Positions 4,679 to 32,100 of a stretch of DNA of 64,000 bases are shown here, piece after piece (the stretch's first letter is position 1; every line of letters starts with the position of its first letter). Made by a program: the position numbers and the translations under genes. Origin of the DNA: Rivularia sp. MS3. Its GTDB lineage: Bacteria; Cyanobacteriota; Cyanobacteriia; Cyanobacteriales; Nostocaceae. The notes beneath the pieces were generated by a model. That model saw only the letters and a list, made by a program, of their open reading frames with translations. It made no database searches and was not told where the DNA came from. The stretch covers positions 248,001 through 312,000 of the forward strand of contig JAHCMI010000001.1 in NCBI GenBank assembly GCA_019192545.1, written 5' to 3'.

Positions 4679-5731
4679 ATGGCTGCAAAAATCCCCGTTA
4701 CCGTAATCACTGGTTTTTTAGGTAGTGGAAAAACTACTTTAATTCGTAATTTACTACAAAATAATCAAGGAAGACGCATCGCTGTTATAGTCAACGAGTT
4801 TGGCGAACTCGGTATTGATGGGGAATTATTACAATCTTGTCAAGTTTGCCCGGAAGAGGAAAGCGGCGATAATGACGATAATAATATCTACGAATTAACC
4901 AATGGTTGTCTTTGCTGTACGGTACAAGAAGAGTTTTTACCGACGATGCAGCAGTTAATTAAACGCCGAGACAGTATCGACTGCATTTTGATTGAAACTT
5001 CTGGTTTAGCTTTACCAAAACCTTTAGTAAAAGCTTTTCGCTGGCAAGAAATTCGCAATGCGGCTACGGTAGATTCTGTAATTACCGTGGTGGATAGCGA
5101 AGCGGTTGCTGCTGGTACTTTTGCTAGTGACTTAGAAGCTATAGAATCGCAACGTCAAGCAGATGATAGTTTAGAACATGAGACACCATTACAAGAATTA
5201 TTTGAAGATCAACTCGCCTGTGCCGATTTGGTGGTATTAAATAAAACCGATTTGGTGAATAAAGAAACCTTGGCTGAGGTAAAGAATTTAGTTAAAGAAG
5301 AATTACCTCGGATAGTAAAGATTGTTGAAAGTCATCAAAGTGAAGTTGATTCTTCCATACTATTGGGTTTACAAGCTGCCGTAGAAGACAATTTAGATAA
5401 ACGCCCTTCTCATCATGATACCGAAGAGGAACACGAACATGATGATGAAATAACTTCTCATCATGTAGTTTTAAACCGTACTTTTGAACCGAATAAGCTG
5501 AAGCAGCAATTGCAAAATCTAGTACAACAGCAAGAAATTTTCCGCGTTAAGGGTTTTGTTGCAGTGGCTGATAAACCGATGCGTTTAGTAATGCAAGGTG
5601 TAGGAAATCGTTTTGAACAATTTTACGATAGAGCTTGGAAACCAGAGGAAGCGAAACAAACTCGTTTGGTTTTTATTGGTAAGGATTTAAATTCTTCTGA
5701 TATTGAATCGCAATTGGTTGATTTGAATTAA
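4679..5731 (+). CDS. cobW: CobW-family GTPase / metallochaperone
   Basis: 350 residues, COG0523 family. The P-loop is GFLGSGKTTL (residues 12-21) and the signature metal-binding motif is GCLCC (NGCLCCTV, near residue 77). The GTPase specificity motif NKTDLV lies near 200. A histidine/acid-rich segment around residues 243-262 (HHDTEEEHEHDDEITSHH) and an SCQVCPEEE stretch add possible metal ligands. The C-terminal CobW_C domain is present (VKGFVAVADKPMRLVMQGVG). The family delivers metal ions (cobalt, zinc or others) to enzymes; cyanobacterial members are named after cobalamin synthesis, but the metal is not proven here. A chelatase large subunit of the ChlH/CobN family lies 53 kb away in the same window. 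Confidence 0.88.
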   Translation: MAAKIPVTVITGFLGSGKTTLIRNLLQNNQGRRIAVIVNEFGELGIDGELLQSCQVCPEEESGDNDDNNIYELTNGCLCCTVQEEFLPTMQQLIKRRDSIDCILIETSGLALPKPLVKAFRWQEIRNAATVDSVITVVDSEAVAAGTFASDLEAIESQRQADDSLEHETPLQELFEDQLACADLVVLNKTDLVNKETLAEVKNLVKEELPRIVKIVESHQSEVDSSILLGLQAAVEDNLDKRPSHHDTEEEHEHDDEITSHHVVLNRTFEPNKLKQQLQNLVQQQEIFRVKGFVAVADKPMRLVMQGVGNRFEQFYDRAWKPEEAKQTRLVFIGKDLNSSDIESQLVDLN

Positions 5732-5760
5732 CTTCTTGCATAATTCTTAATTTCGCTCAA

Positions 5761-5808
5761 AGAAACCCGGTTTCTTGTTGTGAAATCGGGAAGAAACCGG
5801 GTTTCTAG
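5761..5808. repeat. GAAACCCGGTTTCT palindromic repeat, tandem pair
   Basis: GAAACCCGGTTTCT followed after 20 bp by GAAACCGGGTTTCT. Each is a palindrome and the pair can form a long hairpin downstream of cobW. Related copies lie at 49183-49214 and, degraded, at about 25557-25590. Confidence 0.7.
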
Positions 5809-5817
5809 CAATGGCGC

Positions 5818-5955
5818 AATATAGCTATAGCGAATTTCATTCTCATGTCATACATTATTACCTCACCCCGCCCTCCGGGCACCCCCTCTCCTTATAAAGA
5901 TAGAGGGGAAAAGGTAAAGAAATCTCTGTATTACACCCAACTCAAAAGATTATAT
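5818..5955. repeat. Family A MITE-like repeat, copy 1 (inverted, diverged)
   Basis: The stretch runs from TATAGC through CCTCACCCCGCCCTCCGGGC and CCCCTCTCCTTATAAAGATAGAGGGG to ATTACACCCAACTCAAAAG. The same ordered blocks occur at 22088-22184, 22755-22885 and 45121-45210. The ends are imperfect inverted repeats of about 20 bp. Confidence 0.65.
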
Positions 5956-5992
5956 TTGAGTTTGAATTAACTTTTAAGGACTAATTTGCCAA

Positions 5993-6018
5993 ATAAAAAA
6001 AGAGGGTTTCCCCTCTTT
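5993..6018 (-). terminator. Intrinsic terminator of rpsA
   Basis: Read on the minus strand: AAAGAGGG, loop GAAA, CCCTCTTT, then a T-rich run. Perfect 8-bp stem with tetraloop and U-tract, about 60 bp past the rpsA stop codon. Confidence 0.9.
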
Positions 6019-6078
6019 AAATATTTGCAAAACTCTAAACTGTTATAAGCGTTATAAATGTCTGTAATGATAGATTCA

Positions 6079-7272
6079 TTATTCTTCGACAGTCGCTGCA
6101 ACTTCCTCTTGAGTTTCATTTTGAACTTCAGTTTCTGCTGGTGCTTCTGATTGAACTTCAGTTTCTGCTGGGGCTTCTGATTGAACTTCAGTTTCTGCTG
6201 GGGCTTCCTCTGCTTGAGCTTCAGTTTCTGCTGGTGCTTCTTGTGCTTGAGCTTCAGCTTCTGCTGGTGCTGTTTCTTCAGCTACTGGAGAAGATGCTTC
6301 CTCTGCGGTTGCTTCTTCAGTCGCTGCTGGCACTTCCTCAGCAGGTGCAGCTTCAGGAGTGATACCCTGTTCCTTGGCTAATAACTGTTCGCGGAATTTA
6401 GCAGCCATTTCCTCTGCTTTATCAAATACCGCATCACGGTTTTTAATCATATCACCAGGTTCTGGCTCAAGCTGCTTAGTAGAAAGTGAAATTCTACCTC
6501 TTTCTGCATCCAAGTCAATAATCATTACCTTCAATTCATCATTGACGTTGAATACGCTGTGGGGTGTATCGATATGTTCGTGAGAGATTTCGGAAATGTG
6601 CAGCAAACCACTGACACCACCAATATCGATGAAGGCACCGTAAGGCTTGATACCGCGAACTGTACCAATTACAACTTCGCCCACTTCCAAACGGTTCATC
6701 TTACGTTCAACCAGTGCCCGTCTGTGAGACAATACAAGCCGGTTGCGTTCTTCGTCTACTTCTAAGAATTTTAATGGTAGCTCTTCACCGACCAAATCTT
6801 CTTTTGGCTTACGAGTACTTATATGAGAACCGGGAATAAAGCCACGCAATCCTTCAATTCTTACCAATGCACCGCCACGGTTGGTTGCGAATACGCCCGA
6901 ACGCACGGTGGCATCCTCTGTTTGTAACTGGCGTACCCTTTCCCAAGCCCGCATATACTCAATACGGCGAATAGAAAGAGTTAGCTGACCTTCTTCATTC
7001 TCATCGCTAAGAATGTAAAATTCCCGCGTTTCGTTGGATTGTAATACTTCTTCCGGGTTATCCACCCGGTTAATTGACATTTCTTGTATAGGTATATATG
7101 CCGCCGTTTTAGCACCAATGTCAATCAGAGCGCCGCGCGGTTCTAAACTAAAAACTGTTCCTGGTACTATATCCCCTGGGCTGAAGTGATAATCGTACTT
7201 ATCAAGTAAAGCCGCGAAATCGTCGTGTGTAAACCCAATATCATTGGTTGGTTTCTGATTGACATTTACCAT
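6079..7272 (-). CDS. rpsA: 30S ribosomal protein S1
   Basis: 397 residues, with the cyanobacterial/chloroplast layout of three S1 RNA-binding domains (about residues 30-100, 115-185 and 195-265) instead of the six of E. coli. Diagnostic stretches are FSPGDIVPGTVFSLEPRGA, LRGFIPGSHIS, and VIGTVRGIKPYGAFIDIGG with GLLHISEIS. S1 brings mRNA to the 30S subunit. The last 95 or so residues are an acidic, low-complexity tail rich in Ala, Glu and Pro. It ends in near-identical decapeptides of the type PAETEVQSEA, coded by a tandem DNA repeat at about 6120-6210. The gene has its own terminator at 5993-6018. Confidence 0.96.
   Translation of the reverse strand: MVNVNQKPTNDIGFTHDDFAALLDKYDYHFSPGDIVPGTVFSLEPRGALIDIGAKTAAYIPIQEMSINRVDNPEEVLQSNETREFYILSDENEEGQLTLSIRRIEYMRAWERVRQLQTEDATVRSGVFATNRGGALVRIEGLRGFIPGSHISTRKPKEDLVGEELPLKFLEVDEERNRLVLSHRRALVERKMNRLEVGEVVIGTVRGIKPYGAFIDIGGVSGLLHISEISHEHIDTPHSVFNVNDELKVMIIDLDAERGRISLSTKQLEPEPGDMIKNRDAVFDKAEEMAAKFREQLLAKEQGITPEAAPAEEVPAATEEATAEEASSPVAEETAPAEAEAQAQEAPAETEAQAEEAPAETEVQSEAPAETEVQSEAPAETEVQNETQEEVAATVEE
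6120..6255 (-). repeat. In-gene tandem repeat coding the S1 C-terminal tail
   Basis: A 30-bp unit (TTGAACTTCAGTTTCTGCTG plus GKGCTTCTGA on the plus strand) is repeated nearly exactly three times and then decays into related units. It codes PAETEVQSEA-like decapeptides and preserves frame. Such a tract is prone to length change by slippage. Confidence 0.8.
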
Positions 7273-7879
7273 GCTTTATGTTTCCTGGTTTTATTCTCCG
7301 TAAAATTTTTGCCTCCTAGCGATGTATATCCAATCGCCTCGTTTTGGCAGTCCACACTTGTATGCAATATTATCCTAGCGCAGAAAAGCCGATTAAACAC
7401 ACATCAACTTTCAGATTATAGATTATATCAAATTTTAATACTTTGTGTAATCTCGACAGTAAACTAGATTTTGGAATTACTACTGTCCCATTGATGATGG
7501 GGGAGAGGGGAAAGAAAAATAATTTTTAAGTAAGCGTTCTGTAAATGGAAGGTTAAAGGTCAAAGGTTAAAGGTTAAAGGGATTAAGCCCGTTGCTACGG
7601 ATGCAACTTACACATTTTTATTAGAAGTTTTTATTAGAAATTTCAAATCTATCTCAAATCTTTTAGGAATGGTCGTAACTGAGCATATTTTTTTGCAGGG
7701 TGCTTTTGCACTGACTGCCAATTGAATGTAATAACAGTTTTAATTTTTTCCTATCTACTTTCCTCAATCAAAGTAATACATCAATAGAAATAACCGCTGC
7801 TATCTTTTAAATATCGTTAGCAACGGTCAATCAAAATCTATATTCTGCCAACAAATCTGGCATTAACCTTGATTTTATT
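7273..7879. other. Intergenic region between psbT and rpsA
   Basis: No gene seen. It contains a GGTTAAA/GGTCAAA heptamer repeat near 7550-7580. Just past psbT lies a small hairpin, TGCCA/TGGCA (7846-7862), without a T-run. It should hold the rpsA promoter near its left end. Confidence 0.5.
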
Positions 7880-25845: not shown

Positions 25846-26208
25846 TCAAATAACAACTGATTTTACAGCACCGATTAGTTGCTGTCTGGTAAACGGTTTT
25901 GTGAGATAAAGATCGGCCCCTTGCCTCATCCCCCAAATGCGGTCAATATCTTTGTTTTTAGAACTACAAAAAATAATCGGTATCTTTTTTGTATCTAAGT
26001 TACGTTTAAGCTTACGACAAAATTCAAAACCGCTCATTCCCGGCATCACAACATCTGTAATAATTGCATTTGGCTGATATAGCAGAGCTTTTTCTAAACC
26101 GTCTTTAGCATCAGTAGCCCTAATAACCTCGTACCCACCTTCTTGTAAAAAGATGTTCATCAACTCCAGTTGAGAAGGAGTATCTTCAACCACTAAAACT
26201 GTAGCCAT
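25846..26208 (-). CDS. CheY-like single-domain response regulator (PixH/HmpB type)
   Basis: 120 residues, a receiver domain only. The acidic pair is VVEDTPS, the phospho-acceptor Asp lies in AIITDVVMPGMSG (near residue 52), the Thr/Ser switch in CSSKN and the conserved Lys in LTKPFTRQQL. Cyanobacterial proteins of this type (PixH, HmpB) follow a PATAN-REC regulator and act in phototaxis or hormogonium motility signalling, as here with the gene at 26302-27732 just upstream. A kinase, CheW and methyl-accepting receptor normally follow but are absent. Confidence 0.85.
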   Translation of the reverse strand: MATVLVVEDTPSQLELMNIFLQEGGYEVIRATDAKDGLEKALLYQPNAIITDVVMPGMSGFEFCRKLKRNLDTKKIPIIFCSSKNKDIDRIWGMRQGADLYLTKPFTRQQLIGAVKSVVI

Positions 26209-26301: not shown

Positions 26302-27732
26302 TCAAGTCAAATGCATAAATACTATTTTGAGTAAATCTGCACGAGTAAAAGGTTTAGTCAAATAACCGCTGGCTCCCATTAATCTTGCCTTAACTTTATC
26401 TACGAATCCTTTACTTCCCGTAACCATGATAATAGGAGTGTTTTTAAATTTTGAATTGTTTCGTATTATTCGACACAATTCATAGCCGTCAATTCCTTCC
26501 ATATTTAAATCCAATAAAATTAAATCCGGCTGATGCCTAATAATCGACATTACAGCTTTCAAAGGATTATCAATAGTCACAACAGAAAAACTTTCATCTT
26601 CCAAGAAGCGACTAATTTCTTTAAGCATTACCGGGCTATCATCAACAGAAACAATTTTGTAGACTTTCTGAGGTGATACGTTTGCCCCAGGAGATATAGG
26701 CTGAATATTATTTACTTGCGGTTGTTTGTCAGCTTTCTCTATAGCTGAAGGCTTTGTTTCCTGTTTAATAGTTACTTTATTAACAGGTATTTGCTGCTTT
26801 GGAACGGCAACATTATCTTTTTGTTTGGTATTTTTTTCCGGCTTTGTCTCTGGTTTATTCTCTTGAAAATCAGTTAAAACCTTATTATCTTGGTTTATTC
26901 TTACGGGGGGACCAGATAATAAAGTATCAGTTTTAGGAAGTTTATCGAAAGGTGGATCTGGTTCGTGTAATAGAATAGCTCCACTTTGAATATGAGGGTA
27001 TAAACTTCGCGCCAATACAAGTTCATCTTGATTCATAATTACAGCAAGATGACGCAAGCTAAATCCCTTCATCCAATTGATTAAATTTGGTTGAATATCC
27101 GAAATTTTCTGTACTTGGGTTTTTGTATTAATCCACAAATAAGGGCGCTGAAATGGAGAAGTAATTTGTGGATTTAGATTATGCCAAGACTGCAACCTTT
27201 CCTGAGAAAATAATAATAACTTCTCAGCATCAAGTCGGCAAATTTTTGGAGATAAACTTAAATTCTGATGAAATTCGTAAGTGCCTTTTTTGATTAATAA
27301 AAATGATTCGATAACTTCTTTAACTAATTCTTGAATTAATATAGCTGCTTGAGTCGGATTGAGATATCTTTGAGTAACTAGCCAGCAAATAGCTTGATAA
27401 TCAGATGGCTGTTGAGTAGATATTGATTCTGAAGCATTGTCTACCGCTTCATAGGGCTTCCGCAGCGAATCAGGCTCAAACATCATGCGTAACTGTACTC
27501 TAATTTCGCTGGTTAAAGCTGGAACCTGAACCGAAAGCCGACGTAAATGACGTTCGAGTCTATCAAAAGGTTCAATTGAATGAGTTGCGTAAGCAATTTT
27601 CCCTTCTTCTAAGTAAATCCACCAGTTAACTGAATGACTTTGGACTTGCAAACAAGTATTCTCGAAACAACTAGACAGGTGTCGTAACAAACTTAAAGGA
27701 GGCAATTTTGTGAAAGTCGCAAAATTATTCAT
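26302..27732 (-). CDS. PATAN-REC response regulator (PatA/PixG/HmpA type)
   Basis: 476 residues. The N-terminal half is the PATAN (PatA N-terminal, DUF4388-like) region (LPPLSLLRHLSSCFENTCLQ, WWIYLEEGKIAYATHS, LERHLRRLS). A low-complexity Lys/Gln/Pro-rich linker spans about 270-345. The C-terminal receiver has VSVDDSPVM, phospho-acceptor in LILLDLNMEGIDG, MVTGS and LTKPFTRADL. In other cyanobacteria such proteins set the direction of pilus-based movement, and PatA affects heterocyst pattern. Gene order with the CheY-like protein (93 bp downstream) matches the start of pix/hmp operons. Which of these paralogues it is cannot be decided by eye. Confidence 0.87.
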   Translation of the reverse strand: MNNFATFTKLPPLSLLRHLSSCFENTCLQVQSHSVNWWIYLEEGKIAYATHSIEPFDRLERHLRRLSVQVPALTSEIRVQLRMMFEPDSLRKPYEAVDNASESISTQQPSDYQAICWLVTQRYLNPTQAAILIQELVKEVIESFLLIKKGTYEFHQNLSLSPKICRLDAEKLLLFSQERLQSWHNLNPQITSPFQRPYLWINTKTQVQKISDIQPNLINWMKGFSLRHLAVIMNQDELVLARSLYPHIQSGAILLHEPDPPFDKLPKTDTLLSGPPVRINQDNKVLTDFQENKPETKPEKNTKQKDNVAVPKQQIPVNKVTIKQETKPSAIEKADKQPQVNNIQPISPGANVSPQKVYKIVSVDDSPVMLKEISRFLEDESFSVVTIDNPLKAVMSIIRHQPDLILLDLNMEGIDGYELCRIIRNNSKFKNTPIIMVTGSKGFVDKVKARLMGASGYLTKPFTRADLLKIVFMHLT

Positions 27733-28340
27733 ATAGGATAGAGAATTACAGTAAATAAGACAAAATATTTGTAAACATCAATTGAATATAATTAAGTATA
27801 AAGAGTAAATATTCAGTATGAACCATTCAGTCCTCTTCTTACATGGATATATTACCAGCTAAAAATAATACATCACAGTTTGATTGTTACATTTGTTTTT
27901 ACAATATATAAAGCAAAAATATATGTGCATCAAAAATAACTTTTGATTTTTAATATCAGTTAATTAATTCTCTTTTTAATAGAGGATTAAGTTTGGGATT
28001 GTCAGTATTTCATCGAATCTAGGTTTTTTCTACATATAATCTTTAAGTTTCCACGTATGCACTTATGCCGAATTTATTGTATTCTAGGTTTATTATGTAT
28101 ATAAACCCATTAAGTTAAAGCCATTGCTAATCTAATTTCCACAGAAATGCTTATGAATTAATCAAATATAAGTAAAGATATGTCGAACTTTATAAGTAAT
28201 AATGCATTAGTAACTTACGAACTATTGTAAAAAACTCTATAGTCTGAAGTACCACAGCAATGGTTTCTTTAGGGCTTTAAACTATATACTTTGCACAGCT
28301 GAAAATAGAACCATCCGAACTTCAAGAGCCACCGAAAGTT
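27733..28340. other. Divergent intergenic region (PATAN regulator / vWA operon)
   Basis: About 0.6 kb, AT-rich, with no gene or clear repeat. It must hold promoters for both divergent operons. No recognisable binding site was found. Confidence 0.5.
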
Positions 28341-29015
28341 ATGTCAGATACCTTAAGACTAGACGAAGTAGTTGATTTCGCGGAAAATCCCGAACCTCGT
28401 TGTCCGTGCGTACTATTGTTAGATACATCTGGTTCAATGCAAGGAGCGCCAATAGAAGCTTTAAATCAAGGCTTACTTAGTTTTAAGGACGAGCTGACGA
28501 AAAACCCATTAGCCTCAAGACGAGTTGAAGTATCTATAGTTACTTTCGATAGCAATATAAACGTAGTTCAAGATTTTGTAACTGCCGATCAATTTACTCC
28601 GCCTATATTAACAGCACAGGGATTAACTACTATGGGTGCTGGTATTCATAAATCTTTAGATTTGATTCAAGAACGTAAAGGTCAATATCGCTCTAACGGT
28701 GTCGCTTACTATCGTCCTTGGATATTTATGATTACTGATGGCGAACCACAAGGAGAACCAGACGAAGCGGTAGAACAGGCATCACAGCGTTTGCAAAGTG
28801 ATGAAACAAACAAACGTGTTGCATTTTTCTCTGTTGGAGTGGAAAATGCCAATATGACACGCTTGAGTCAGTTAGCAGTACGTACACCCTTAAAACTAAA
28901 TGGATTAAATTTTGTTGAAATGTTTGTTTGGTTATCTGCTAGTATGTCAGCAGTTTCTCATTCAAAAGTAGACGAACAAGTAGCTCTACCGCCAATTGGT
29001 TGGGGTTCTGTTTAA
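28341..29015 (+). CDS. TerY-like von Willebrand factor A domain protein
   Basis: 224 residues, a single vWA domain. The metal-ion-dependent adhesion site is complete: DTSGSM (residues 29-34, DxSxS), the Thr in GLTTMGAG (near 95) and the Asp in MITDGEPQGE (near 135). Length and the N-terminal LRLDEVVDFAENPEPRCPCV match TerY-type proteins, which serve as docking platforms in phosphorylation triads. It is the first gene of an operon with a PP2C phosphatase (47-bp gap) and a kinase (71-bp gap). Its likely role is to bind the kinase or a target protein in a metal-dependent way. No signal peptide is present, so it is cytosolic. Confidence 0.88.
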   Translation: MSDTLRLDEVVDFAENPEPRCPCVLLLDTSGSMQGAPIEALNQGLLSFKDELTKNPLASRRVEVSIVTFDSNINVVQDFVTADQFTPPILTAQGLTTMGAGIHKSLDLIQERKGQYRSNGVAYYRPWIFMITDGEPQGEPDEAVEQASQRLQSDETNKRVAFFSVGVENANMTRLSQLAVRTPLKLNGLNFVEMFVWLSASMSAVSHSKVDEQVALPPIGWGSV

Positions 29016-29062
29016 TATAGTGCAAGTACAGCAGTTAAACAGCCCAGAAAATTGGTAAGTAT

Positions 29063-29842
29063 ATGAACAGTTCAATGCAAAAGCTTCATTGGCGGGTAGT
29101 AGGGGCATCAGTTTGTGGCACCAGCCATGTCAAGAATTCCCAACTTTGTCAAGATGCTCATCATTGGCAAATGTTACCGGATAATATTTTGGTAGCAGCC
29201 GCAGCAGATGGTGCAGGAAGTGCAAGTCTGGGGAAAGTTGGAGCAATGGTTGCTGTAGAAGCGGCAATTGAGAATATATCTCTCAAGCGGATTACTCAAG
29301 ATACTCTGTCTTCAGATAATTCGGCAAGGTCGTTACTAAGTGAAGCAATCTTAGCTGCAAAAACGGCGGTAGAGGAAGAAGCAATAGCTTCAAACAGACC
29401 ACCTAAAGATTTAGCGACAACTTTAATTATTGTGGTGGCTACACCAATAGTCGCCGTTGTTGCTCAAATAGGAGATGGTGTGGCAGTTGCTAAAGATAGT
29501 ATGGGTAATTTAACAGCTTTAACAGTTCCTGATAGTGGCGAATATATTAATGAAACTAGTTTTTTAACTTCACCAACTGCTTTAGATTCAGTGCAGGTAA
29601 ATGTATGGCGACAGGGTATTACTAATATTGCACTTCTTACCGATGGGCTGCAAATGTTGGCGATTAATATGTCTGTGGGTTTGCCACACAAGCCATTTTT
29701 TCTACCTTTATTTGAATTTGTCGCTAACGCTGAAGAATTGAAAGGAGCTAAGGAACAACTAGTTAAATTTCTACGTTCGGAAAAGATAACTCAACGAACA
29801 GATGACGATCTAACTTTAATAATAGCTGCATTAAGCGAATAA
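29063..29842 (+). CDS. PP2C-family protein phosphatase of the vWA/PP2C/kinase triad
   Basis: 259 residues. Metal-binding acidic motifs of PP2C are all visible: CQDAHHW (motif 1 Asp, near 30), AAADGAGSA (motif 2, near 52), QIGDGVAVA (near 140), LLTDGLQML (near 193) and TDDDLTLIIAAL at the end. It should remove phosphates placed by the kinase coded next. No regulatory domain is fused. The small gap to both neighbours implies a single transcript. Confidence 0.9.
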   Translation: MNSSMQKLHWRVVGASVCGTSHVKNSQLCQDAHHWQMLPDNILVAAAADGAGSASLGKVGAMVAVEAAIENISLKRITQDTLSSDNSARSLLSEAILAAKTAVEEEAIASNRPPKDLATTLIIVVATPIVAVVAQIGDGVAVAKDSMGNLTALTVPDSGEYINETSFLTSPTALDSVQVNVWRQGITNIALLTDGLQMLAINMSVGLPHKPFFLPLFEFVANAEELKGAKEQLVKFLRSEKITQRTDDDLTLIIAALSE

Positions 29843-29913
29843 TAAATCCATTAATCCATTAACGATACTGTTGAACCGCAGTCAAACTTAAACAATAAAA
29901 GTGTAATTTAAAA

Positions 29914-32100
29914 ATGCAGGTACTACACTGTCTTCCCAATCAAAAAATTGTGAGCATGAACCTCAACGTTAGTTTGGGGCGTGGTGGCGAAGCGTGCATC
30001 TACACAGTACCATCAGATGCTGAAACGGTAGCTAAAATTTACCATAAGCCAGACATCGAAAAGGCTCGTAAATTAGAGGTGATGGTGTCTCATCCACCTT
30101 CTAACCCAACAGCATCTTTAGGGCATATTTCCATTGCTTGGCCCTCCGAACTGATTCGTGCCGCAGACGGTAGCAATAATATTATTGGTTTTACGATGCC
30201 GCGCATTCGGGGAATGCGTCCTGTCATCGACTTTTATAACCCAAGGACTCGACGACAGCATTGTCCTTTATTTAATTATCAGTACCTGCTTCGCACTGCT
30301 CGTAATTTGGCTGCGGCTTTTGCTGCTCTACATCAAGCTGGATATTGTGTTGGTGATGTTAACGAATCAAATATTTTAGTTAGCGATACGGCTTTAGTTA
30401 CCATAGTAGATACCGATTCTTTTCAAGTTCGCGATCCAAAAACCGATATCGTATATCGTACTCCCGTAGGTAAGCCTGAATTTACACCTCCGGAACTGCA
30501 AAACAAAACATTCTCAGAGTGCGATCGCTCTACCCCTCATGACTTGTTTGGTTTAGGAGTACTAATATTTCAGCTTTTAATGGAAGGTACTCATCCATTT
30601 TCTGGGATTTACCAAAGTGTAGGCGAGCCACCACCATACGAAGCACGGATTGCTAAAGGACACTTTACTTACAGTGTAAATCGGCGCGTACCTTATTCTC
30701 CTACACCGATTGCACCATCTTGGGATATTCTTCATCCTACTTTGCAACAACTTTTTGTACGTTGTTTTGAAGACGGTCATTATAACCCTAATATTCGTCC
30801 GAACGCTCAAACGTGGCTGATGGCGTTAGCTGAAGCGGAAGATGCTCTACGTACATGTCAGAAAAATCCGCAACATCTTTACAGCAATCACCTACATAAA
30901 TGTCCTTGGTGCGAACGAAGTGCCAAATTAGGTGGGAGAGACCCCTTCCCGTCAATTCAAGATGTTGCCAATAAACAACATCTAAAACCCCGCCCCAGAC
31001 CAAAGCGCCGACGGACTACTACAGTTCCCAGAAGACGAACTGCTGCAACTGTAGGCACATCTAGATACGTTACTCCCAAGCGTCGTTCGCCACAACTTGG
31101 TAGAAAAATTTCCTACAATCCCTCAAATACGAAACCGAAATTTTACCCGGTTCTTTTGTGCTTGCTTGGCTTTTTAACATTAGGCTATTTAGATATAGTT
31201 ACAAAGTTTACAACATCTAATGTAGAAGAGAATCAATATACCCAACAAACTTTAATAAGTTCTAAACCTACAGAAAGCAAAAGTAGTTTTTCAGATTACT
31301 ACAAAGAAGGTCGTGCAGCTTATAAAGGGCAAAAATACGAAGAAGCCATTGCTAATTTTGCTCAAGCAATACAAAAGAAACCTGATAGTGCCAAGGCTTA
31401 CGTGAATCGTGGCAATTCGCACTATAACTTAAAAGAATACGAAGCAGCCCTTACAGATTACACCCATGCTCTCAAATTAAATCCAAATGCAATAAAAGCA
31501 TTTGTGAATCGTGGTAATGTTCGTTATATGCTCGCCGAATATAGCAGCGACCCCGATAAAGAGTACAAATTAGCAATTGAAGATTATAACCAGGCGCTAA
31601 GAATCGACCGCGATGAAGTAGAAGCATACATTAGACGGGGTATTGTTCGTTCTCAAATAGCTAAATTTAGCGGCGACTCCCAGAAAGATTATTTGAGAGC
31701 AATTGATGATTTTAATAAAGCATTGCAGATTAATCCTTCCAGACCAGAAGCTTTTTATCAAAGAGGATTAGTTCGCTATCAATTAGCTCAATATAGCAGT
31801 AACTTCGAGCAAGAATACAAAAAAGCTCTTACAGATTTTAATCAAGCATTGCAATTAAATACTAAATTGCCGAAAGTTTATCTGAAGCGAGGCTTAGTTC
31901 GCTACGAGTTAGCTCAGTACGGGGGAGGTAATTCTAATAGATATCGTCAGCAAGCAATAGAAGATTTACAAAAAGCAGCTAAAATATCTCTTGAAAAAGA
32001 TGACATGGATAATTATCAGCAAGCACTTAGCAGTATCTGTGTTGTTGTTGACAATAAGTGCGATACTTTATTCCAGAAAACAAGTGTCATACAGCGATAA
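29914..32100 (+). CDS. Membrane-anchored protein kinase with C-terminal TPR repeats
   Basis: 728 residues. The kinase domain is at 1-300: Gly-rich loop VSLGRGGEACIY, Lys in VAKIYHK, catalytic loop YCVGDVNESNILV (the usual HRD reads VGD), metal loop VDTDSFQV (DFG reads DTD) and activation-segment end EFTPPEL. These changes look like a known divergent kinase subfamily rather than damage, since the Asp and Asn are kept. A Cys pair CPWC near 330 may bind zinc. A basic linker with KPRPRPKRRRTT follows, then one membrane helix (FYPVLLCLLGFLTLGYLDI, about 409-427). Four to five TPR units follow outside the membrane (YKEGRAAYKGQKYEEAIANF onwards). TPRs on the far side could sense envelope partners. 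Confidence 0.88.
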   Translation: MQVLHCLPNQKIVSMNLNVSLGRGGEACIYTVPSDAETVAKIYHKPDIEKARKLEVMVSHPPSNPTASLGHISIAWPSELIRAADGSNNIIGFTMPRIRGMRPVIDFYNPRTRRQHCPLFNYQYLLRTARNLAAAFAALHQAGYCVGDVNESNILVSDTALVTIVDTDSFQVRDPKTDIVYRTPVGKPEFTPPELQNKTFSECDRSTPHDLFGLGVLIFQLLMEGTHPFSGIYQSVGEPPPYEARIAKGHFTYSVNRRVPYSPTPIAPSWDILHPTLQQLFVRCFEDGHYNPNIRPNAQTWLMALAEAEDALRTCQKNPQHLYSNHLHKCPWCERSAKLGGRDPFPSIQDVANKQHLKPRPRPKRRRTTTVPRRRTAATVGTSRYVTPKRRSPQLGRKISYNPSNTKPKFYPVLLCLLGFLTLGYLDIVTKFTTSNVEENQYTQQTLISSKPTESKSSFSDYYKEGRAAYKGQKYEEAIANFAQAIQKKPDSAKAYVNRGNSHYNLKEYEAALTDYTHALKLNPNAIKAFVNRGNVRYMLAEYSSDPDKEYKLAIEDYNQALRIDRDEVEAYIRRGIVRSQIAKFSGDSQKDYLRAIDDFNKALQINPSRPEAFYQRGLVRYQLAQYSSNFEQEYKKALTDFNQALQLNTKLPKVYLKRGLVRYELAQYGGGNSNRYRQQAIEDLQKAAKISLEKDDMDNYQQALSSICVVVDNKCDTLFQKTSVIQR

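Follow-up and report, generated by a model that had tools for sequence, protein, structure and literature searches.

A 64,000-nt window of contig JAHCMI010000001.1 from the cyanobacterium Rivularia sp. MS3 (the window is the whole stretch of DNA analysed, and all positions are relative to it) carries a triad of genes for a vWA protein, a PP2C phosphatase and a protein kinase with a predicted membrane helix and a C-terminal tetratricopeptide repeat (TPR) domain. The triad is real and its coordinates are exact (Table 1). It is core equipment of the Nostocaceae, not a Ter island; judged by its proteins, its nearest characterised kin is YegL-PphC-YegI of Escherichia coli, with TerY-P-type triads much more distant. 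We read it as a receptor-type reversible kinase/phosphatase switch, at a probability of roughly 0.6. In this reading a single helix would span the inner membrane, with the catalytic domain of the kinase and a C-H-C-C element, probably for zinc, on the cytoplasmic side and the TPR superhelix, which a cysteine pair closes, on the periplasmic side. The kinase would be altered when its TPRs bind a partner or a component of the envelope, the neighbouring PP2C would remove the phosphates again, and the vWA protein, via its metal site, would hold a peptide of the kinase, the phosphatase or the target. We infer this order of action.

Kinship and conservation of the triad

The three genes lie on the + strand with gaps of 47 bases (vWA-PP2C) and 71 bases (PP2C-kinase) and are putatively co-transcribed. 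In phmmer comparisons with E. coli K-12, the window proteins matched yegL at 242 bits, pphC at 123 bits and yegI (kinase part) at 189 bits, genes that share the order and strand arrangement of the window triad. The TerY-P-type kinases found score 42-62 bits against the window kinase domain, versus 189 for YegI. A 4090-base query across the E. coli yegL-pphC-yegI stretch has matches in 5366 of 5426 E. coli genomes, 5342 of which cover 80% or more of the query. The window triad has the gene order of the YegL-PphC-YegI type, its kinase motifs GD....N and DxDSxQ and the C-H-C-C site, the last being a marker defined in this analysis.

A maximum-likelihood tree of 81 kinases (82 sequences were given and L108 was left out; a Hanks outgroup failed to align) places the window kinase in a clade of 47 (98/95; clade A) made up of 46 cyanobacterial rows and one row from a viral contig. 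Adjoining it are a second cyanobacterial clade of 25 (100/99; clade B) and a clade of 5 that includes YegI (99/100). The 28 Nostocaceae rows, the window among them, form a single clade (100/100), and the window's branch looks vertical. Three TerY-P-type kinases with vWA and/or PP2C neighbours (L109, L110 and L112) are distant in the tree, at a point where long branches meet and their exact place is unsure; behind the kinase, L109 and L110 have two CxxC pairs and L112 one. The preliminary description of this DNA had called the locus a TerY-P-like triad: a conserved kinase, PP2C and vWA set without a Ter link stands, while bit scores, gene order and tree give YegL-PphC-YegI as the nearest kin.

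The catalytic and metal-binding residues of the two partners are fixed. The metal-ion-dependent adhesion site (MIDAS) of the vWA protein (D28xS30xS32, T96 and D133) is identical across 64 aligned vWA proteins, and D31, D49-G50, D138, D194 and D248-D249 of the PP2C are identical across 64 aligned phosphatases, E. coli included in both cases; both alignments were limited to sequences above thresholds of length and bit score, which leaves split PP2C genes uncounted. A complete MIDAS and a full set of PP2C acidic motifs, as first described, are thus confirmed.

Distribution, Ter linkage and defence

Among 244 cyanobacterial genomes, kinase matches occur in 73 at E 1e-8. Fourteen of these are weak (E 5e-17 or worse, the next stronger being 1e-35) and were left out of the co-occurrence set; the remaining 59 genomes are exactly the 59 with the vWA protein (E 1e-30) and the 59 with the PP2C (E 1e-20), and they reach across the same family, order, class and phylum levels. 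In the Nostocaceae, the window-type kinase is present in 117 of 118 genomes, one copy each (E 1e-120), and the genome that lacks it is 88% complete. Some Nostocaceae genomes also hold a clade-B kinase copy; the window genome has none. The ratio of nonsynonymous to synonymous substitution rates (dN/dS), taken against four near relatives, is low in all parts of the triad: 0.01-0.09 in the folded domains (vWA 0.01-0.03, PP2C 0.03-0.08, kinase 0.06-0.08, TPR 0.04-0.09), 0.02-0.09 at the C-terminus, 0.03-0.14 in the helix and the part after it and 0.15-0.24 in the linker, values that are rough because dS spans 0.58-2.5 and is near saturation in places. Nearly all Nostocaceae genomes examined thus keep the switch, in one copy and under strong selection.

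A role as regulator of tellurite or metal stress, as in Ter-linked TerY-P triads, has in its favour that the three enzyme types are shared, that in both cases a metal-binding element follows the kinase, and that one TerC-family gene does occur in the window genome. That gene is on another contig, which means that the triad locus itself has no TerC, although the family is represented in the genome. TerD and TelA are absent from the whole window genome, and TerD from 102 of the 118 Nostocaceae genomes, against 117 with the kinase; all 16 genomes with TerD also have the kinase. It is this disparity (117 against 16 of 118, with no TerD in the window genome) that makes the triad core equipment and not a Ter island. 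Since the window kinase also lies far from the TerY-P-type kinases in the tree, a Ter role is highly improbable, and the linkage was rejected. The original remark that no TerC or TerD gene lies within the window therefore holds, for TerD genome-wide.

The three genes mostly stay together. Of 345 relatives the best 80 became the named loci, which are therefore biased to near kin; with the window they number 81, and in 80 of them, more than chance would give, the order is vWA-PP2C-kinase (the exception, L146, begins near a contig end). In a sample across the phylum, the surroundings of 81 kinase open reading frames contain the kinase cluster at 77 loci, PP2C at 65 and vWA at 64, some loci being cut by contig ends; PP2C and vWA are always upstream of the kinase on the same strand. 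This list holds only reading frames of more than 250 residues, so the short kinase piece at L107 is absent. In 12 chosen genomes whose kinase lacks the full neighbouring set, a vWA gene was found in 12 of 12 and a PP2C gene in 9 of 9 searched. Six of them (G005, G157, G213, G135, G045 and G033) have one kinase and all three genes, yet not all together. The adjacency proposed as a check in the preliminary description is accordingly kept in the named loci and broken in these six genomes.

Some loci differ in layout. L042 (6040-8721) and L043 (7224-9632) encode clade-A kinases without adjacent vWA or PP2C genes and with GUN4-like tail matches (that of L043 below the Pfam cut-off). L107 (6364-10182) is a clade-B type triad with whole vWA and PP2C genes and a kinase split in two pieces. 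Extra genes separate the PP2C from the kinase at L036 (4602-6838) and L037 (4590-7402); in L037 the inserted gene (5636-7402) encodes ribonuclease III domains and a NACHT-associated helical domain.

Relatives of the kinase occur on 58 of 72,556 plasmid records, with the whole triad in both records opened, and weakly in 2 of 50,697 records of an annotated phage collection. One of the plasmid loci is L199, on Trichormus variabilis plasmid A (typed conjugative), a vWA-PP2C-kinase triad whose kinase is annotated with WD40 repeats. A 16 kb viral contig (L197, 551-9054) holds a complete family triad between a major head protein gene and a head-closure match; its kinase is fused to an FGE-sulfatase domain, and DuOB and two DUF488 genes lie beside it. 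The viral scans gave no relative for a clade-B kinase query and, for a YegI query, one piece cut by a contig end. From the plasmids and the one viral contig it follows that the YegI-type triad family can travel.

These mobile relatives favour a different reading, in which the triad would act on its own against phages, as the TerY-P system is reported to do against T7-like ones, and its TPRs would sense infection; TerY-P-like triads do defend, according to the available portions of two reports (PMC7699616, PMC11090510). Kinase, PP2C and vWA neighbours are described in actinobacterial conflict systems in the accessible text of a third (PMC7159879). Against a defence role, a single clade-A copy in 117 of 118 Nostocaceae, with synteny conserved in the named loci, is unlike a patchy defence gene, and in the kinase tail there is no CxxC...CxxC ribbon and, by Pfam, no OB fold. 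A PADLOC defence assignment was rejected: the kinase matches other defence-kinase models only weakly, and neither the window vWA nor the PP2C matches any family at E 0.01, the TerY model included. Among the examined neighbours (response regulators, pheT and sugar genes) no Ter or defence association was found, the rest of the window being outside the defence-gene scan. We consider a defence role unlikely. Because the triad is a core function in the Nostocaceae, the probable role of the receptor-type switch is in normal growth or the physiology of the envelope, not in resistance or defence.

Active site and membrane topology of the kinase

Pfam finds the kinase domain weakly (Pkinase 1.5e-9 across residues 122-235, plus many TPR models), and a full-length structure model was good in the TPR part and poor in the kinase part. 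A model of residues 1-350 made afterwards with AlphaFold2 from 75 sequences reached a predicted local distance difference test score (pLDDT) of 87.3 and a predicted template modelling score of 0.88, and the 50 best PDB matches shown by Foldseek were all kinases or kinase complexes. Among 77 aligned family kinases (L197 added, L108-L112 left out), K41, D148, D166, D168, S169, Q171 and E194 are invariant, as are G25, E26 and K53, and G147 and N153 are each present in 76 (YegI has Ser at 153). K41 is assigned as the beta-3 lysine from its position within the model strand 35-43. Of the Hanks-type hallmarks, the kinase fold, beta-3 lysine, catalytic aspartate and metal aspartate are thus present and the alpha-C glutamate is lacking. 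Since the catalytic and metal aspartates are kept, GDVNESN and DTD are the YegI-family form of HRD and DFG and not decay. The preliminary description had correctly noted VGDVNESN and DTD and had called the kinase divergent; D148, N153 and D166 are retained in these motifs, which are the family norm. By analogy with E. coli YegI, the kinase is probably catalytically active.

The same description had not mentioned three features: the near-universality in Nostocaceae, the C-H-C-C site behind the C-lobe and the predicted outward topology with a cysteine pair. The C-H-C-C site probably binds zinc and may be a ribbon in which, in the YegI branch, His took the place of the second ligand. The fusion to a membrane helix and TPRs, which the preliminary description did report, is borne out as a prediction by Pfam, hydropathy and the model. 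Two features suggest that the TPRs lie outside the inner membrane. First, the 40 residues before the helix carry a net charge of +11 in the window kinase and +4 to +8 in 27 other Nostocaceae rows. Second, the C-x6-C pair recurs, in the phylum sample, in 27 Nostocaceae rows, the window and L033; with a conserved pair and almost no other cysteine, a periplasmic disulfide would be expected. With a cytoplasmic kinase and a single helix, the TPRs should be outside. Topology and disulfide are both putative. An arginine ladder in the TPR groove was considered and dropped, RG being common in cyanobacterial TPRs. TPR kinases in Nostoc, not necessarily this one, were noted in 2005 (PMC1262709, in the part available).

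Several points weigh against the receptor-type switch. The active site is non-canonical, because no conserved alpha-C glutamate is found in helix 48-59 of the 77 family kinases (position 55 is A, Q, R, K or E); E26 and D168 are candidates for the residue that would pair with K41 instead. A member of the family named Yegi1 is listed as a pseudokinase in the accessible part of PMC12599244; by the same text its motifs are HSDLSYKN and DVD with no beta-3 lysine, and these motifs are closer to those of L112 than to those of the window kinase. As a membrane segment the helix is borderline: its mean hydropathy is about 1.8, and an invariant aspartate, D427, lies close to its end. The next 40 residues are not negative but near neutral (-2 to +4 in the window and Nostocaceae rows), and L087, alone in the phylum sample, carries a third tail cysteine. 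An outside sensor is no family rule either, because some clade-B relatives (L046, L051 and L052) have WD40 tails and no membrane helix was found in them. The co-occurrence is inflated by shared descent, and the other six of the 12 chosen genomes have two kinases each, some second copies (L042, L043 and L104) standing without vWA or PP2C neighbours. To these are added the roughness of the dN/dS values and the literature: among open-licence publications we found none on a cyanobacterial vWA/PP2C/kinase triad and no experiment on any cyanobacterial member.

The lack of the alpha-C glutamate, the weak Pfam match, the borderline helix and the near-neutral charge behind it would also fit a scaffold, in which the kinase has little or no activity and its TPRs form a docking platform on the cytoplasmic side. 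The invariance of the catalytic and metal residues argues against this, and YegI, which is more deviant, is reported active in the available text of its description; the cysteine pair and basic linker likewise fit an outward TPR domain. We therefore think a scaffold rather improbable, though less so than a defence module, and retain the receptor-type switch.

Genomic setting and comparison with known systems

Table 1. Features of the triad and its surroundings, in window positions.
Feature	Position	Strand	Evidence
vWA protein, YegL-like	28341..29015	+	224 residues; Pfam VWA 5.8e-12; complete MIDAS
PP2C phosphatase, PphC-like	29063..29842	+	259 residues; Pfam PP2C_2 6.6e-56; acidic motifs complete
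Kinase, YegI-like, with predicted membrane helix and C-terminal TPR domain	29914..32100	+	728 residues; Pfam
Kinase domain, residues 1-335; K41, D148, N153, D166, D168, E194	29914..30918	+	AlphaFold2, Foldseek, conservation
Probable zinc site C315-x5-H321-x8-C330-x2-C333 behind C-lobe	30856..30912	+	Invariant in 77/77 family kinases including YegI
Predicted transmembrane helix, about residues 410-429, behind strongly basic linker	31141..31200	+	Hydropathy, charge; model helix 411-433
TPR domain, residues 459-694, predicted outside inner membrane	31288..31995	+	Blocks mostly pLDDT >90; Pfam TPR; dN/dS 0.04-0.09
C709-x6-C716 pair, sole cysteines past helix in window protein	32038..32061	+	Pair in 81/81 loci
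Divergent PatA-like response regulator (DUF4388 + REC), candidate fourth gene	26302..27732	-	Pfam; 65/70 loci
Single-domain response regulator beside PatA-like gene	25846..26208	-	Pfam; 25/70 loci
Conserved upstream block TTCTACAnnnAATCTTTAAA	28027..28048	+	77-locus alignment
Conserved upstream block around TTATTGTATTCTA	28075..28088	+	77-locus alignment
Conserved upstream block AAnTATATACTTTGA, near vWA gene start	28279..28302	+	77-locus alignment

Which fourth gene accompanies the triad had been raised as a check, and the PatA-like response regulator is the candidate: it lies upstream and divergent in 65 of the 70 named loci with enough flank. An RfbF-like sugar-nucleotide gene is present downstream in 74 of 75 named loci. 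Other neighbours of the triad are an LhgO-like gene in 69 of 75, PheT in 44 of 70 and the REC gene in 25 of 70. In the phylum sample (some loci being short), the PatA-like gene occurs at 25 of 27 Nostocaceae loci and at L033, and at 0 of 17 remaining clade-A and 0 of 25 clade-B loci, while RfbF occurs at 24 of 27 Nostocaceae loci and at none of the others. L033 is the sole other clade-A locus in that sample with TPRs and the cysteine pair. Its PatA-like gene stands in a row with REC, CheW-, MCP- and CheA-like genes (named by inspection of the sequences and phmmer), and these CheW-, MCP- and CheA-like partners are not beside the Nostocaceae loci. Because L033 is sister to the Nostocaceae in the tree, common descent explains its synteny as well as function does.

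Three upstream non-coding blocks lie at nearly fixed distances from the vWA gene in Nostocales (of 81 loci, 79 have the anchor motif and 77 have 420 bases of room). An NtcA-type site, GTAN8TAC, was rejected as the mark of a common regulator: within 700 bases upstream it occurs in 11 of 79 loci, at no fixed place. Between 25000 and 36000 of the window, Rfam gave no match above the gathering score. Promoter-like sites (11 against 20.1 expected from shuffles) and terminator-like sites (7 against 4.4) were uninformative.

Of the clues to function, the best is the synteny with the PatA-like regulator and with a surface-sugar cluster, which points to pili, taxis or surface polysaccharide. A more specific proposal, which we offer as speculation, is that the kinase is a near-universal envelope-sensing receptor of heterocyst-forming cyanobacteria, whose periplasmic, disulfide-capped TPRs would read the surface or septum, the triad and the PatA-like regulator together controlling surface behaviour (type IV pili or surface polysaccharide). 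What sets the window triad apart is its core status in the Nostocaceae and a TPR sensor that is probably on the outside. Being present in one copy, with what looks like a sensor domain, in a group that includes laboratory strains, it would allow tests of what the YegI family does and of the part played by its vWA partner.

In its predicted layout the window kinase resembles the PrkC/PknB-type receptor kinases, which have a cytoplasmic kinase, one membrane helix, an outside sensor and a cognate PP2C; those differ in having a canonical Hanks kinase with PASTA sensors and no vWA partner. Mycobacterium tuberculosis PknG (Foldseek match 2pzi) likewise joins a kinase and TPRs in one chain and has a metal centre too, but its parts are ordered differently and it has no membrane helix.

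TerY-P triads share the vWA, the PP2C and a kinase with a metal-binding element behind the C-lobe. In the portion of PMC11090510 available, that kinase tail is a zinc ribbon or OB fold and the partners are Ter, restriction or helicase genes; neither tail is found in the window kinase, where C-x5-H...C-x2-C is followed by a helix and TPRs and no Pfam OB-fold model matches. L109 (1-9757) is a TerY-P-type triad beside a gene for a 1132-residue AAA_11/AAA_12 (UPF1-like) helicase, with a coiled-coil-looking gene further on; its vWA does match the PADLOC TerY model, weakly (2.4e-5), and its arrangement resembles the CoCoNuT-linked TerY-P triads described in that portion (PMC11090510). In general terms the window locus may function as TerY-P triads do, although it is not one of them.

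The closest likeness is to E. coli YegL-PphC-YegI, with three homologous proteins in the same order and strand, GD and DxDSxQ motifs and the C-H-C-C site. K-12 differs in having yegJ inserted and Ser at the N153 position, and the YegI tail has several hydrophobic segments and a weak helix-hairpin-helix match below the Pfam cut-off, without a TPR domain or C-x6-C pair. In other members the kinase and C-H-C-C site are followed by different tails, among them WD40 repeats, 19 TPR matches, several hydrophobic segments, GUN4 and, on the viral contig, FGE-sulfatase. YegI itself, in the accessible part of its description, is an active membrane kinase with a cognate PP2C that reverses its activity (PMC13232886).

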